Below are positions 20,320-25,738 of a stretch of DNA of 64,000 bases, in pieces. The stretch covers positions 1 through 64,000 of the forward strand of contig WGFY01000047.1 in assembly GCA_015491995.1 (NCBI GenBank). Reading direction: 5' to 3'. The notes under the pieces are model-generated. The model searched no databases, was not told the origin of the DNA, and saw only the letters and a list, made by a program, of their open reading frames with translations. The stretch is from Mesoaciditoga sp. (GTDB lineage: Bacteria > Thermotogota > Thermotogae > Mesoaciditogales > Mesoaciditogaceae). Position 1 is the stretch's first letter, and the number at the start of each line of letters is the position of its first letter. The position numbers and the translations under genes were made by a program.

Positions 20320-20675
20320 TGGTGGAGGCGACGGGAATCGAACCCGTGTCCGAGGTGTACATTCCATGAACATCTCCGAGCGCAGTCCGTGCTTTAAAGT
20401 CGTGATCCGTCCCACACGGACACGGTACGAATCACCTTAGCTCTCTTGATCTCTCCGAATCAGCCAAGAGCAATTCTGACCGGAAAAGATTGAATTTTTG
20501 ACGCTTTGTCCTTTTCTCCAATCAAAAAAAGGGAAGCGGCTGCTATCTACTATTAAGCAGCAAGTGCGTAATTGTTATTGACGTTTATTTTTCTTTCCGC
20601 CTTTTTCACGAGGAGGCAGGCACCCTCGGCTCGCTTTTCACGACTTATACACCCCGTCGAAACCATTTCGCCCCC
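20320..20675 (-). ncRNA. ssrA: tmRNA
   Basis: Rescues stalled ribosomes by tRNA-like entry followed by translation of a degradation tag. On the minus strand the RNA opens with GGGGGCGAAATGGTTTCGAC and closes with GGTTCGATTCCCGTCGCC followed by TCCACCA, the tRNA-like T arm and acceptor with an encoded CCA. The tag reading frame ends at 20553 (TAA then TAG) and reads NVNNNYALAA upstream of the stop (20553-20585); the exact resume codon is uncertain. About 356 bases is normal for a one-piece tmRNA. The short in-frame ORF crossing it on the plus strand is not a gene. Confidence 0.97.
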
Positions 20676-20681
20676 AGTTGC

Positions 20682-20690
20682 ATTTTATCA
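20682..20690 (-). promoter_or_regulatory. tmRNA promoter, extended -10
   Basis: Minus strand TGATAAAAT, a TG-extended -10; six bases later begins GGGGGGC, placing transcription start at or one base before the tmRNA 5' end. The -35 is weak (TTCTGA at 17-base spacing). Confidence 0.55.
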
Positions 20691-20765
20691 TAAATTCCTT
20701 TCAATCAGAAATTGAAGATCTTTCAAAATATTTTTCAAAAAATTATATATTTTTATGTTTATGGC

Positions 20766-20794
20766 TTGACAAATCAATTTTTTTGATTTATACT
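20766..20794 (+). promoter_or_regulatory. Consensus promoter with a perfect dyad inside the spacer
   Basis: TTGACA at 20766-20771, a 17-base spacer and TATACT at 20789-20794: a near-perfect housekeeping promoter for the operon that starts at 20852. The spacer holds AAATCAA (20771-20777), five T, and TTGATTT (20783-20789), a perfect 7+7 inverted repeat centred between -35 and -10. A repressor bound here would block polymerase. The DUF2089 protein encoded downstream is the natural candidate, but that is inference. Confidence 0.75.
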
Positions 20795-20851
20795 TCAATA
20801 AAATTAATTAAAAAACAATAATTTTTCATCACGTTTTGGGAGATGTATTTC

Positions 20852-21070
20852 ATGGAAAGAACCGATTTGTTAGGCGTGTTAACCATGGTCAAAAGTGGTC
20901 AGACGAGCGTGAAAAATGCCGCAAAGATGATAGAATTACTTGAAAGACACCGCATTGCCAAAAATCCAAAAGATAGCCAAATCAAATATCATGAGAGAAC
21001 AAACGCTGTAGTTTCGCCGACATGCACTAAGGCGTACGTGATTCTGTCCCAAAAATTCTTAAAACTTTAG
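20852..21070 (+). CDS. Small SHOCT-like helical-hairpin protein
   Basis: 72 residues from the ATG at 20852, nine bases after GGGAG. The N-terminal 30 residues (RTDLLGVLTMVKSGQTSVKN, then AAKMIELLE) match the two-helix unit found at the start of YvlB-type proteins, with the pattern ILxxVKxGxxxxxxAxxLI. The rest is short, basic and unrecognised. The same unit appears at the end of the DUF2089 protein and at the start of the protein at 24036. First gene behind the dyad promoter and 11 bases before the DUF2089 gene, so it belongs to that operon. Role unknown; a small regulatory or adaptor protein is plausible. Confidence 0.65.
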   Translation: MERTDLLGVLTMVKSGQTSVKNAAKMIELLERHRIAKNPKDSQIKYHERTNAVVSPTCTKAYVILSQKFLKL

Positions 21071-21081
21071 GAGGTGGTGAA

Positions 21082-21468
21082 ATGTCTGTGGTAATCCATT
21101 GCCCCGCTTGCGGACATAAAATGGACGTTATAACTTTAAAATGCCCTGTCTGTGGCACAGGAGTCACCGGAAGGTTTGAAATGGACGAAATTTTCAATAT
21201 TTCAGAAGAACAGATGAAGTTCGTAAAGGTCTTTTTGAAAAACAGAGGCAATCTAAGCGAGGTACAAAAGGAACTCGGGATATCTTATCCCACGGCACGA
21301 AACCGATTAAATGATATTGTAAAGGCTCTTGGATACGATGTAGCAGATGAAGAAAAAATAAACGAGCGTGAGATCCTTGAGAAGGTGAAGAACGGTGAAA
21401 TAGATGCCGCCGCCGCCATATCCATATTGAAAGGAGAGAAAAAGAATGAAGGAAATCAGGAATTTTGA
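21082..21468 (+). CDS. DUF2089-family zinc-ribbon regulator
   Basis: 128 residues with an N-terminal zinc ribbon (CPACGHKM and CPVCGTG) and a helix-turn-helix-like segment (NLSEVQKELGISYPTARNRL at about residues 54-75), matching DUF2089 proteins. The C terminus ends in the two-helix unit EREILEKVKNGEIDAAAAIS. Ribosome site TAGGAGGTGGTG precedes the ATG. DUF2089 genes commonly stand next to DUF4097 genes, as here. A transcription regulator of its own operon is the likely role; DNA binding is not proven. Confidence 0.8.
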   Translation: MSVVIHCPACGHKMDVITLKCPVCGTGVTGRFEMDEIFNISEEQMKFVKVFLKNRGNLSEVQKELGISYPTARNRLNDIVKALGYDVADEEKINEREILEKVKNGEIDAAAAISILKGEKKNEGNQEF

Positions 21469-22426
21469 AAAAGACATTCCAGATATTAAAAGTATCACCC
21501 TTCACATGATCTCAACTGATCTTAAAATCGTATCTTTGGATGAACCAAGAATTTCCATAGAAGTAGAACTATCTGGATTCAAAAAAGATGTTGAAGAGTA
21601 TGAGCCAAAGGTAAAAGTTCGTGGGGATATATTAGATCTTTCTTTCATTTCCAGTGGATCGATTTCCATTTCTCTATTTGGAGCAACTTTTCCTGGAGTA
21701 AAGGTTTTAAGGGCTAAAATCGGCATCCCAAAAGTCGTTTCTTCGGTGATCGAAACGACATCAGGTGACATACTTGTTGATGATGTCACTTTAAAAAAAT
21801 TGGAGATCACAAGCGTCTCAGGAGATTTAAGAATTTCAAATGGAGAATTCGAGAAAATTTTCCTCAAATCCACCAGCGGAGATGTTGATATTCTTCAAAC
21901 GTCATCGCCAATAGAAGATGTTGAAGCACATACGGTTTCTGGAGATATCCAAATAAAAAAGGTTAGCTTTTCAAAAGCTTATTTCAAAACAGTCTCAGGG
22001 GATATAAAAGCAATTCATGTGAATGCAAACATGAGATCTTTGGAAGTCAAAACGACTTCCGGCGATGTAGAAGTTCTTTACTCTTCTCGCCCATCAATTC
22101 ACGTTGAATTTTCAACTGTGAGTGGAGATGTTCAAGCAGACGGTAGAAGGTTCCCCTCCAAAATGCGAAATGGCTCCTTTGACATCGGTGAAAAGCCAAA
22201 ATCCATCTTGAAATTCAAAAGTGTGTCAGGTGACGCTAAGATCGATTTCGGGAAAGGAGAAAAGATTAATTTTTCAAAAGATAATTCCGACGAAAATGAA
22301 GGGATTTTCAAAGAAATACTCAAATCAAAGAGAGCAACACTTTATGAAGTCAAGGAGTTAATGAACACTCTCAGGTACTCTCAAGAGGATATAAAGAAAT
22401 TTTTTGAAAAGGAGAAAAGAAAATGA
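21446..22426 (+). CDS. DUF4097 beta-repeat protein
   Basis: 326 residues. The central part is a run of about seven short repeats, each with a SGD(I/V/L) turn: TTSGDILVDD, SVSGDLRISN, STSGDVDILQ, TVSGDIQIKK, TVSGDIKAIH, TTSGDVEVLY, TVSGDVQADG and SVSGDAKIDF. This is the DUF4097/DUF2807 beta-solenoid pattern. The tail is charged and helical (LYEVKELMNTLRYSQEDIKK). No signal peptide is visible, so it is probably cytoplasmic or delivered to the membrane by a partner. It overlaps the DUF2089 gene by 23 bases and has its own AAAGGAG site. Confidence 0.85.
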   Translation: MKEIRNFEKDIPDIKSITLHMISTDLKIVSLDEPRISIEVELSGFKKDVEEYEPKVKVRGDILDLSFISSGSISISLFGATFPGVKVLRAKIGIPKVVSSVIETTSGDILVDDVTLKKLEITSVSGDLRISNGEFEKIFLKSTSGDVDILQTSSPIEDVEAHTVSGDIQIKKVSFSKAYFKTVSGDIKAIHVNANMRSLEVKTTSGDVEVLYSSRPSIHVEFSTVSGDVQADGRRFPSKMRNGSFDIGEKPKSILKFKSVSGDAKIDFGKGEKINFSKDNSDENEGIFKEILKSKRATLYEVKELMNTLRYSQEDIKKFFEKEKRK

Positions 22427-22746
22427 AAGCGTTTTCCATATTTTTGATCTTGGTAGGAATTTTGAGTTTTCTTTCCATATTTGGGATGATGAACATGACC
22501 TTTGGAATATTCGTTTCCGTACTTTTCGCGATCATATTCGGCGTTGAAGGCATAAGGGAAGTTGTAAAGGGAAGCTTGGTAGGAATAGGAGGAATACTTT
22601 TTTCTATTTTTCTATTCGCAAAGGTTTTTGGACTTCAAACGACGGGAGGACAAGTTTTCATGGCACTCGTTGCTTCCTATCTCATCGGTATAGGAATTCA
22701 TATACTCTTTAAGAAGAGTCGCAAATTCGATTTTTGGCAGGATTAG
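22423..22746 (+). CDS. Small membrane protein of the DUF4097 operon
   Basis: 107 residues with three or four membrane helices (about 3-25, 27-45, 52-70, 76-95) and a short basic tail (KKSRKFD). No family name is recognised. It overlaps the DUF4097 gene by 4 bases (ATGA). In comparable operons a small membrane protein anchors or senses for the DUF4097 partner; that role is inference. Confidence 0.7.
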   Translation: MKAFSIFLILVGILSFLSIFGMMNMTFGIFVSVLFAIIFGVEGIREVVKGSLVGIGGILFSIFLFAKVFGLQTTGGQVFMALVASYLIGIGIHILFKKSRKFDFWQD

Positions 22747-22781
22747 ACAAAACGGCAAATTCCAAAGGGAAGGAAAAAAAT

Positions 22782-24020
22782 ATGTCAAATGAAAGCCCAT
22801 CAAAAATTCCAGCTTTACCAACTAAACTCTTCAACAAAAATTACGTGCTTTTATGGTTAGGCCAAATGGTTTCTGCCACAGGAAATTCCATTCAATATAT
22901 AGCGTTGATGTGGTGGATCCTGGAAAAATTTCCATCGGACCAATCTGGTATCGTTATGGGATGGATGTTCGCTTCTAACATGATACCAGTTGCGGTGATA
23001 GGACCATTTGCGGGTGTGCTCGTTGACAGAATAAGCAGGAAAGCGATCGTGGTGCTTTCAGACGCATCAAGGGGAGGGCTGATATTGTGGATGGCGTACC
23101 TTGCATACACAAATCAATTGACCACCTGGTGGATATACACCATAGCCGCCCTTATGGGAGCTGGAGCCGCTTTTTTCAGACCGTCTCTGCAAGCTACAAT
23201 ACCCAACATAGTTCCTGATAGGCATTTGACAAGAGCCAACAGCTTGTTTCAAACAGGAATGCAATTCACACAGATCATAGGGCCCGCGATTGGTGGAATT
23301 TTAGTCGGATTCTTTGGAGCGTTTTTTGTTTTCGCTGTGAACGGCATATCCTTTCTTGTGTCAGCATTTACGGAACTTTTCATAAATTTCAGGCAAAATT
23401 TCAGAAAATCCGAGAAGATCAAATCTTTCCTTGGCGATTTCAAAGAAGGGTTGAAGTTCACGTATAGCAAGAAATTGATATTTTGGACCATGATCATAGT
23501 ATCACTTTTGAATTTCGCTTTTGCCCCAATAGATATTCTCATAGCCAAACAGGTTAAAGTCATCTACGGTCTTGGCGCGTTAGAGCTTGGGTATGTTGTC
23601 AGCGCATTTGCAGTGGGAATGATAATCGGTGCCGGATCGCTTTCAATCCTTCCAGAGCTAAAAAAGAAGCACAATGTGATAATCCTGAACATGTTCGTGG
23701 CTGGAGCCTTCTTTTCGGTAATGGGTTTTGCCCCAAGTCTTATCGCTTTTTTGATCTTATCCCTACTCATAGGGATCAGCATTTCAATTTCAGATGTGCT
23801 TTTCATGGTCGTTTTACAAAGAATTGTTCCAGATGAAAAACGTGGGCGAGTTTTCAGCGTTCTTACAACATTTGGTACCGTTTTACAGCCAATATCTCTC
23901 GCTCTAATTGGAGGTGTATCGGCAATTTTAACCAACAAGGTGATATTTCTTGTGCTTGGCATAATGGTAGCAGTTGGTTCGCTTTTCATGTATCTTGTGC
24001 CAGGAATGAAAGAAATATAG
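22782..24020 (+). CDS. MFS-type drug/metabolite exporter
   Basis: 412 residues, twelve membrane helices expected. The N-terminal NYVLLWLGQMVSATGNSIQY and the loop GPFAGVLVDRISRKAIVVLSD with the DRxxRK motif fit the MFS_3 group that contains macrolide and siderophore exporters. IVPDEKRGRVFSVLTTF between helices 10 and 11 is another group signature. I set the start at the ATG at 22782, eight bases after GGGAAGGAA; a longer TTG reading from 22734 overlaps the previous gene. Placed in an envelope-stress-like operon, so export of a damaging compound is a reasonable idea. Confidence 0.88.
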   Translation: MSNESPSKIPALPTKLFNKNYVLLWLGQMVSATGNSIQYIALMWWILEKFPSDQSGIVMGWMFASNMIPVAVIGPFAGVLVDRISRKAIVVLSDASRGGLILWMAYLAYTNQLTTWWIYTIAALMGAGAAFFRPSLQATIPNIVPDRHLTRANSLFQTGMQFTQIIGPAIGGILVGFFGAFFVFAVNGISFLVSAFTELFINFRQNFRKSEKIKSFLGDFKEGLKFTYSKKLIFWTMIIVSLLNFAFAPIDILIAKQVKVIYGLGALELGYVVSAFAVGMIIGAGSLSILPELKKKHNVIILNMFVAGAFFSVMGFAPSLIAFLILSLLIGISISISDVLFMVVLQRIVPDEKRGRVFSVLTTFGTVLQPISLALIGGVSAILTNKVIFLVLGIMVAVGSLFMYLVPGMKEI

Positions 24021-24035
24021 GAGGCGATTTTAATC

Positions 24036-24371
24036 ATGGATAAAGAATCTATTCTGAACATAATGAATATGGTAAAAGATGGAACCGTAACTCCAGACGA
24101 AGCCACAGAATTGATAAAAGCATTAACCGATAAAACGACGGAAAACGTGGTCAACGTTCACAAGTCAAAAAAAGGAAAGCTTGTAATCCGCGTAGTTCCT
24201 AAGAGTAAAAAAGGGGAAAAGGCAAATATAACGATCCCTTTGGGAATGGCAAAAATTTTTTTGAGAAAATTTGTGATGGATAAAGGAATAGATATGGATT
24301 TGAAGGATGTGGAAGAAAGCGGAGTACATGTTGAAACTGACGACGAAATTGTGGATATTCATGTTGAATAG
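24036..24371 (+). CDS. SHOCT-like helical-hairpin protein, second copy
   Basis: 111 residues. The N terminus KESILNIMNMVKDGTVTPDE followed by ATELIKAL is the same two-helix unit as in the protein at 20852 and the DUF2089 tail. The C-terminal part (KLVIRVVPKSKKGEKANITI, PLGMAKIFLRKFV, VHVETDDEIVDIHVE) resembles the C-terminal domain of YvlB-like proteins. ATG after AGGAGGCGAT. Last gene of the operon; fliI starts 32 bases later with its own promoter. Confidence 0.75.
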   Translation: MDKESILNIMNMVKDGTVTPDEATELIKALTDKTTENVVNVHKSKKGKLVIRVVPKSKKGEKANITIPLGMAKIFLRKFVMDKGIDMDLKDVEESGVHVETDDEIVDIHVE

Positions 24372-24388
24372 TTGAACGGAATCAATGG

Positions 24389-24397
24389 TGTTATAAT
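24389..24397 (+). promoter_or_regulatory. Extended -10 promoter at fliI, predicting a leaderless mRNA
   Basis: TGTTATAAT: consensus -10 TATAAT at 24392-24397 with TG extension. Transcription starting seven bases after the -10 begins at the A of the fliI ATG (24404). No ribosome site exists between -10 and ATG (TTCCTC). The best -35, TTGAAC, has only 14-base spacing. Confidence 0.55.
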
Positions 24398-24403
24398 TTC
24401 CTC

Positions 24404-25738
24404 ATGAACGATAAAAATAACATAAAAGATATTCTCGGTAAGCTAAAAGATGAAGTGGCAAATGGGGCACTTTGGAAAATCATGGGACGTGTAGACAAAG
24501 CCGTTGGTTTGACGATAGAATCGGTAGGCCCAAATGCTCCGTTGGGAGAATTGTGCGAAATAGACACGGTTAAAGGTAAAGTTCTTGCAGAAATAGTTGG
24601 ATTCAAGGAAAACAAAGTGATTTTGATGCCTCTAAACGATACTGAAGGGTTGTCGGTTGGGGCTCCTATAATGTCTACAGGCGAAAGGCTCTCAGTTCCT
24701 GTAGGTAATTCAGTGCTTGGAAGGATCATAGACGGTCTTGGAAATTCATTGGATGGGAAACCTTTAACCTCATACAAATCTTATCCTTTGAACGCCCCGC
24801 CACCTAACCCCATAACACGAAAGATGATAACTCAACCTCTTCCAGTTGGCATAAGGGTAATAGATGCACTCTTGACAATCGGAAAAGGCCAAAGGATAGG
24901 TATTTTTTCTGGAAGTGGTGTTGGAAAATCCACCTTGATGGGCATGATCGCTCGTAATGCCGAATCAGATGTGAATGTCATATGTTTGGTTGGTGAGCGC
25001 GGAAGAGAAGTTAGGGAATTCATAGAAAGAGATCTTGGAAGTGGCTTGAAAAGATCCATAGTGGTGGTGGCAACGAGTGACAAACCGGCATTGGTAAGAG
25101 TAAAGGCAATATTTACCGCCACCGCGATAGCGGAATATTTCAGAGATCAAGGCAAGGATGTTTTACTAATGGCTGATTCATTGACAAGATTCGCACTTGC
25201 CCAAAGAGAAGTGGGACTTGCCATAGGCGAGCCTCCAGCAACGCGCGGGTACACTCCAAGTGTGTTCGCTTTATTTCCAAAGCTTCTCGAGCGTGCTGGA
25301 AATTCAGACAAAGGGTCAATAACCGGTATATACACCATACTCGTCGAGGGAGACGATATAAACGAGCCTGTTAGCGATACCGCACGTGGAATATTAGACG
25401 GTCATATCGTTCTTACAAGAGAGCTTTCCAATGCCAACCATTATCCAGCCATCGATGTTCTCAAAAGTGTCAGCAGGGTTATGCCATCTGTTGTTGATCC
25501 TTCAACCATGAAAAGCGCCATGTTTTTACGAGAACTCATGTCGACTTACAATTCCTCAAAAGATATGATAAGCATTGGAGCTTACAAGAAAGGGACGGAC
25601 CCTAAAATAGACCGTTCTATAGAGATTCACGACGAAATAGAAAAGTTTTTAAGGCAGTCCGTTGATGAATCCGCTCCCTTCGACGAAACCATTCAAAAAC
25701 TTCAGAAAATAGTGGAGACGGCAAGGGCTAAAGAATGA
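24404..25738 (+). CDS. fliI: Flagellar export ATPase
   Basis: ATPase of the flagellar type III export apparatus. The 444-residue protein has P-loop GSGVGKST at residues 170-177, VCLVGERGREVREFIERDLG, the Walker B LLMADSLTRFA followed by AQREVGLAIGEPPATRGYTP, and the C-terminal SVSRVMPSVV, all standard FliI text and distinct from F1 beta. N-terminal GRVDKAVGLTIESVGP is also FliI-like. No fliH, fliJ or other flagellar gene is in the window. The 3' end overlaps the opposite-strand M24-fold gene by 11 bases. Confidence 0.95.
   Translation: MNDKNNIKDILGKLKDEVANGALWKIMGRVDKAVGLTIESVGPNAPLGELCEIDTVKGKVLAEIVGFKENKVILMPLNDTEGLSVGAPIMSTGERLSVPVGNSVLGRIIDGLGNSLDGKPLTSYKSYPLNAPPPNPITRKMITQPLPVGIRVIDALLTIGKGQRIGIFSGSGVGKSTLMGMIARNAESDVNVICLVGERGREVREFIERDLGSGLKRSIVVVATSDKPALVRVKAIFTATAIAEYFRDQGKDVLLMADSLTRFALAQREVGLAIGEPPATRGYTPSVFALFPKLLERAGNSDKGSITGIYTILVEGDDINEPVSDTARGILDGHIVLTRELSNANHYPAIDVLKSVSRVMPSVVDPSTMKSAMFLRELMSTYNSSKDMISIGAYKKGTDPKIDRSIEIHDEIEKFLRQSVDESAPFDETIQKLQKIVETARAKE

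Follow-up and report, generated by a model that had tools for sequence, protein, structure and literature searches.

A predicted envelope-stress operon of the DUF2089-Toastrack kind in Mesoaciditogaceae, with an MFS exporter and a candidate tandem operator

Described systems and the Mesoaciditogaceae operon

The closest described system is a four-gene DUF2089-Toastrack context, proposed in PMC11237479 as an analogue of the PSP/lia systems, with signalling predicted beneath the membrane. The window (the whole 64,000-nt stretch of Mesoaciditoga sp. DNA analysed) holds an operon that is a Mesoaciditogaceae version of this predicted PSP/Lia-like envelope-stress system. The two have in common Toastrack, SHOCT-like domains and a DUF2089 protein built of Zn ribbon, HTH and SHOCT-like tail; in the window the DUF2089 protein has all three parts, its tail falling under the Pfam cut-off (E 8e-4), and the Toastrack gene adjoins it. 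The published context has a LiaI-LiaF-TM, B-box or PspC partner; the window has a weak LiaF-TM match (E 3e-4, 21.8 bits against a Pfam cut-off of 27). The window operon differs from the published context in its added MFS exporter, in carrying the SHOCT-like part as a separate gene and in its defined tandem operator; the words MFS and Thermotog are absent from PMC11237479.

Three further comparisons can be made. LiaX and YvlB have a SHOCT-like N-terminus fused to Toastrack; both domain types occur in the window operon but in separate genes, the fusion being found in some relatives of our families f9 and f10. The window Toastrack protein matches the NF038025 (LiaX) and LiaG models weakly, LiaX at 58 bits against a cut-off of 350. 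In LiaFSR and VraTSR, as in the window, a single operon unites a LiaF-TM-like part with Toastrack, but they have a histidine kinase and response regulator; profile searches found neither among the six window proteins, and DUF2089 stands in the regulator's place. In leaderless bacteriocin clusters (bawcin, enterocin DD14), DUF2089 adjoins small membrane proteins and exporters (PMC10707071, PMC7332713); there the DUF2089 protein is shorter (89–98 aa), no Toastrack is listed, and the exporter is ABC rather than MFS. The literature mentioning DUF2089, in the portions available, describes neither an operator or DNA target nor an MFS partner for it.

An earlier note on this DNA had proposed a six-gene envelope-stress-like operon. 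ORF calls and Pfam searches bear out the six ORFs and their domain assignments (Table 1), and the envelope-stress-like label is supported. The note had also taken the full set to be undescribed; its DUF2089/Toastrack/LiaF-TM/SHOCT-like core is already in PMC11237479, and it is the tandem operator that appears to be new. DUF2089 is the only DNA-binding protein recognisable by Pfam among the operon genes, and the exporter's profile matches are of the Mef/EntS/TIGR00900 kind. A fliI-like gene begins 32 bp past the last operon gene. On the other side a tmRNA gene (20320-20675, minus strand) is divergent from the operon; upstream genes differ in other neighbourhoods of f1, the family of near relatives.

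Table 1. Promoter, operator and gene features of the window operon
Feature	Position	Strand	Description
Promoter	20766..20794	+	-35 TTGACA at 20766-20771, 17-nt spacer, -10 TATACT at 20789-20794
Operator dyad 1 (candidate)	20771..20789	.	AAATCAA-TTTTT-TTGATTT; core CAA-N5-TTG at 20775-20785
Operator dyad 2 (candidate)	20795..20807	.	TCAA-TAAAA-TTAA; spaced exactly 21 bp from dyad 1; core with one mismatch
Small ORF	20852..21070	+	72 aa; 75 aa with start at 20843
DUF2089 protein	21082..21468	+	Pfam Zn_ribbon_DUF2089, DUF2089 HTH, sub-threshold SHOCT-like tail
DUF4097 Toastrack protein	21446..22426	+	Pfam DUF4097 (E 2e-25); helical C-terminal extension
Small membrane protein	22423..22746	+	Pfam LiaF-TM, weak
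MFS exporter	22782..24020	+	Pfam MFS_1; TIGR00900 / Mef-like
Stand-alone SHOCT-like protein	24036..24371	+	Pfam SHOCT-like (1.8e-7), above cut-off

A two-helix SHOCT-like unit had been claimed for three of the proteins. It is clear by Pfam in the stand-alone protein and sub-threshold in the DUF2089 tail, and the evidence for ORF 20852 is weak: 16.3 bits (E 0.001) with a model of the family of the 24036 protein, and 8.6 bits with a two-helix model, a score reached by 0 of 1000 shuffles. Structure models give two helices for the unit in both the 24036 protein and DUF2089, with modest confidence; the DUF2089 helices lie at the expected places, and in the 24036 protein the two are followed by a predicted beta-beta-alpha-alpha-beta-beta part. 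Fold search gave no significant match for the 24036 protein or for DUF2089. The top ranks for DUF2089, all at E above 0.1, are HTHs of the PucR and LuxR/NarL types, LiaR and VraR among them, and no PDB relative of DUF2089 was found by sequence.

ORF 20852 had been counted among duplicated small proteins of the system. It was found in this genome only, without a homologue in 60 neighbourhoods, and was rejected as a conserved partner, so that duplicated small proteins are not supported as a feature of the system; the weak matches it gives across 103 genomes (E 4e-4 to 8e-3) belong to a protein family of 212–350 aa in f7 that is unrelated to it. The ORF probably derives by truncation from a copy of the SHOCT-like gene at 24036, a reading that fits its coding score, good over the first 34 codons and poor over the remainder.

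A tandem site in the promoter

The top promoter-like match within 20600-24500 is TTGACA-17-TATACT, with 11 of 12 consensus positions matched, and the promoters of all nine f1 relatives align with it. As the earlier note had seen, a perfect 7+7 inverted repeat lies inside its -35/-10 spacer. When this stretch was shuffled 20,000 times, a perfect 7-bp dyad arose in 27 cases, and no dyad exceeds 4 bp at the 8 other good promoter matches of the 64 kb.

Comparison with relatives identifies the spacer dyad as one copy of a larger candidate tandem operator: the window has two dyads 21 bp apart, and other families have up to three, so that the site is more extensive than had been noted. The upstream consensus of the relatives is TTGACA-nn-TCAA-N5-TTGA-ttTATAaT-TCAA-N5-TTGA, the second dyad starting exactly 21 bp after the first; this second dyad, which has one mismatch in the window, is perfect in two other loci (L031 and L035). 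With pairs defined as CAA-N5-TTG sites 21 bp apart and at most one mismatch per site, they occur in 9/10 promoters of f1, 16/19 of f9 and 12/14 of f10, where locally shuffled sequences give an expectation of 0.1–0.2. Loci retrieved only once this rule was fixed were positive in 8/9 and 6/6 cases (14/15 in all), against about 0.2 expected.

Plain triplet counts lacking a null model were swamped by A/T motifs. The motif was also ranked in an unbiased scan of 13,888 combinations of triplet, gap and spacing. It came 1st in f1, 2nd in f9 and 3rd in f10, with an N4 variant ranking beside it; top z-scores were 17–20 at promoters, against 6–8 in a control region further upstream. The loose pattern CAA-N5-TTG-N10-CAA-N5-TTG has a background of about one match per genome over 103 genomes, and became informative only when A/T filling was imposed. 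The exact A/T-filled 21-bp pair then occurs 8 times in 26 whole genomes, every time before DUF2089, and three of the eight genomes bearing it (G067, G070 and G074) played no part in motif discovery. At 20-bp spacing there is one match in the 26 genomes, likewise at DUF2089; with 22-bp spacing or an N4 gap there is none. The comparison argues that the tandem operator is real and specific to this operon.

Within its own genome, the window promoter is the sole match to the double site with one mismatch. Double-dyad matches there number 11, against 3 for the reversed pattern; all but the top one have two mismatches and look chance-like, and a wider regulon was rejected.

The distribution across families is uneven. 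Three dyad copies are frequent in f10 promoters. The CAA-N5-TTG tandem motif is missing from promoters of f6, f7 and f8, and the scan gave f6 and f8 no motif clearly exceeding control level. Seven genomes of one f7 genus, g18 (L058, L140-L144, L149), have a different long dyad, AATACCACTT...AAGTGGTATT, running from -35 to -10. One f10 genome (G089) has a second DUF2089 copy with Toastrack and without the operator. In f9 and f10 (L069-L085) the last operator copy adjoins or overlaps the Shine-Dalgarno region, and a protein bound there could act at the transcript start too.

The gene set across Thermotogota and beyond

DUF2089 is present in 98/103 Thermotogota genomes, and the gene-neighbourhood survey that had been proposed found the operon genes together in many of them. 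Among 60 loci inspected, Toastrack occurs in 50, SHOCT-like genes in 34, LiaF-TM-like genes in 31 and MFS genes in 18; the common core is DUF2089 with SHOCT-like and/or Toastrack and a LiaF-TM-like protein. With B for DUF2089, C for Toastrack, D for LiaF-TM-like, E for MFS and F for SHOCT-like, the window and its near relatives read B-C-D-E-F, genomes of the Athalassotoga type B-C-E-D, and f6, without exporter, B-F-C-D. Parts of f9 and f10 have fused SHOCT-Toastrack followed by MFS, while f4 and Coprothermobacter place MFS in front. Outside Thermotogota, Armatimonadota loci have DUF2089-Toastrack, and loci of Chloroflexi and some Clostridia have DUF2089 and then a SHOCT-like protein of the length of a Toastrack fusion. 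The gene set and its co-occurrence are established on comparative sequence evidence. In one locus (L031, genome G013) the Toastrack ORF is in two pieces of 86 and 227 aa, possibly a frameshift or an assembly error.

The exporter, which had been described as part of the set, is linked to it in several families and in the 18 loci above. ABC or OEP/HlyD/ABC exporters replace MFS in other families, and many have the operon without any exporter, several of these retaining DUF2089-Toastrack. All Mesoaciditogaceae genomes searched have the operon homologue as their top match to the window MFS; in G015 it lies on a separate contig, the operon's contig ending before MFS. Some Mesoaciditogaceae have a second MFS homologue elsewhere, partial or full and 45–60% identical (L238 on G000:C52; L239; L240), and the stretches examined around these three contain neither DUF2089 nor Toastrack. 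Linkage of MFS, DUF2089 and Toastrack in different gene orders, and also in Coprothermobacter, was counted in favour of the favoured reading set out below, as were the ABC and OEP/HlyD/ABC exporters of other families.

Proposed regulation, alternatives and meaning

We lean, by a modest margin over even chances, towards a self-regulating envelope-stress operon of DUF2089-Toastrack type to which the MFS exporter has been added as an effector. DUF2089, named as autoregulator in the earlier note, likely does act on its own promoter through the putative operator dyads; this is the simplest reading, DUF2089 being the only recognisable DNA-binding protein of the operon. DUF2089 dimers bound at both CAA-N5-TTG dyads would lie on the same side of the promoter helix, 21 bp being two helical turns, a repeat that would suit cooperative binding. 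The position of the dyads over the -35/-10 spacer and transcription start suggests repression, in which RNA polymerase would be blocked. At the inner membrane, where the small membrane protein would be involved as well, the SHOCT-like and Toastrack proteins would serve as docking partners for the SHOCT-like tail of DUF2089; that SHOCT-like parts dock on Toastrack proteins associated with the membrane is a published prediction (PMC11237479). We infer that envelope disturbance would alter this docking and release DUF2089 from DNA, turning on the operon and with it the exporter, whose part in the stress response is likewise presumed.

The main objection to autoregulation by DUF2089 is that recognition helix and operator do not go together from one family to the next. 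The f1-type helix (ISYPTA..) is common to f6, f7 and f8, yet those families lack the site; f9 and f10 have the site and a different helix (GYFALRGKL). The operatorless second DUF2089 copy of G089 and the many families whose operon has no exporter also speak against the favoured reading. The helix mismatch counts in favour of a rival in which the tandem sites are real operators for a regulator encoded elsewhere, with DUF2089 its partner or controlling other genes. The confinement of the exact A/T-filled pair to DUF2089 loci in the 26 genomes is instead what a local autoregulator predicts, and no second recognisable DNA-binding protein is encoded in the operon; we regard a distant regulator as unlikely, though the strongest of the competitors. 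The repeats could also be A/T tracts set in phase, curving the promoter and binding no protein; they are A/T-rich inside and spaced by two helical turns, and AAA/TTT combinations at similar spacings score too. Curvature would be expected at many genes, but in the 26 genomes no gene other than those of this operon has the exact pair; moreover the CAA/TTG pair outranks plain A/T pairs in the scan, and the site edges are conserved (in f10, G in 24/24 and C in 18/24), all of which makes bare curvature very improbable.

The other question is what the operon is for. An operon mainly for drug efflux, in which DUF2089 detects what the pump carries and the remaining proteins are accessories, would accord with the kind of MFS encoded and with the ABC exporters beside DUF2089 in the bacteriocin clusters (PMC10707071, PMC7332713). 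Toastrack is far more constant than MFS in the 60 loci, and DUF2089-Toastrack is kept without an exporter in several families, so we give this quite a low probability. Returning to the stress-operon reading, its fullest form is tentative and in our estimate somewhat more doubtful than true: DUF2089 as a one-component membrane-stress repressor that controls its own operon from a phased CAA-N5-TTG array on one helix face and receives its signal by SHOCT-SHOCT contact with Toastrack proteins, in a sensor-switch module that Thermotogota and Coprothermobacter combine with one exporter or another (MFS, ABC, tripartite).

DUF2089, a widespread regulator family, here gains a precise, operon-specific candidate operator, and a predicted PSP/Lia-like Toastrack module is linked to exporters across a phylum. 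For the heat-loving Thermotogota this is probably a gene set for sensing membrane trouble and pumping something out.
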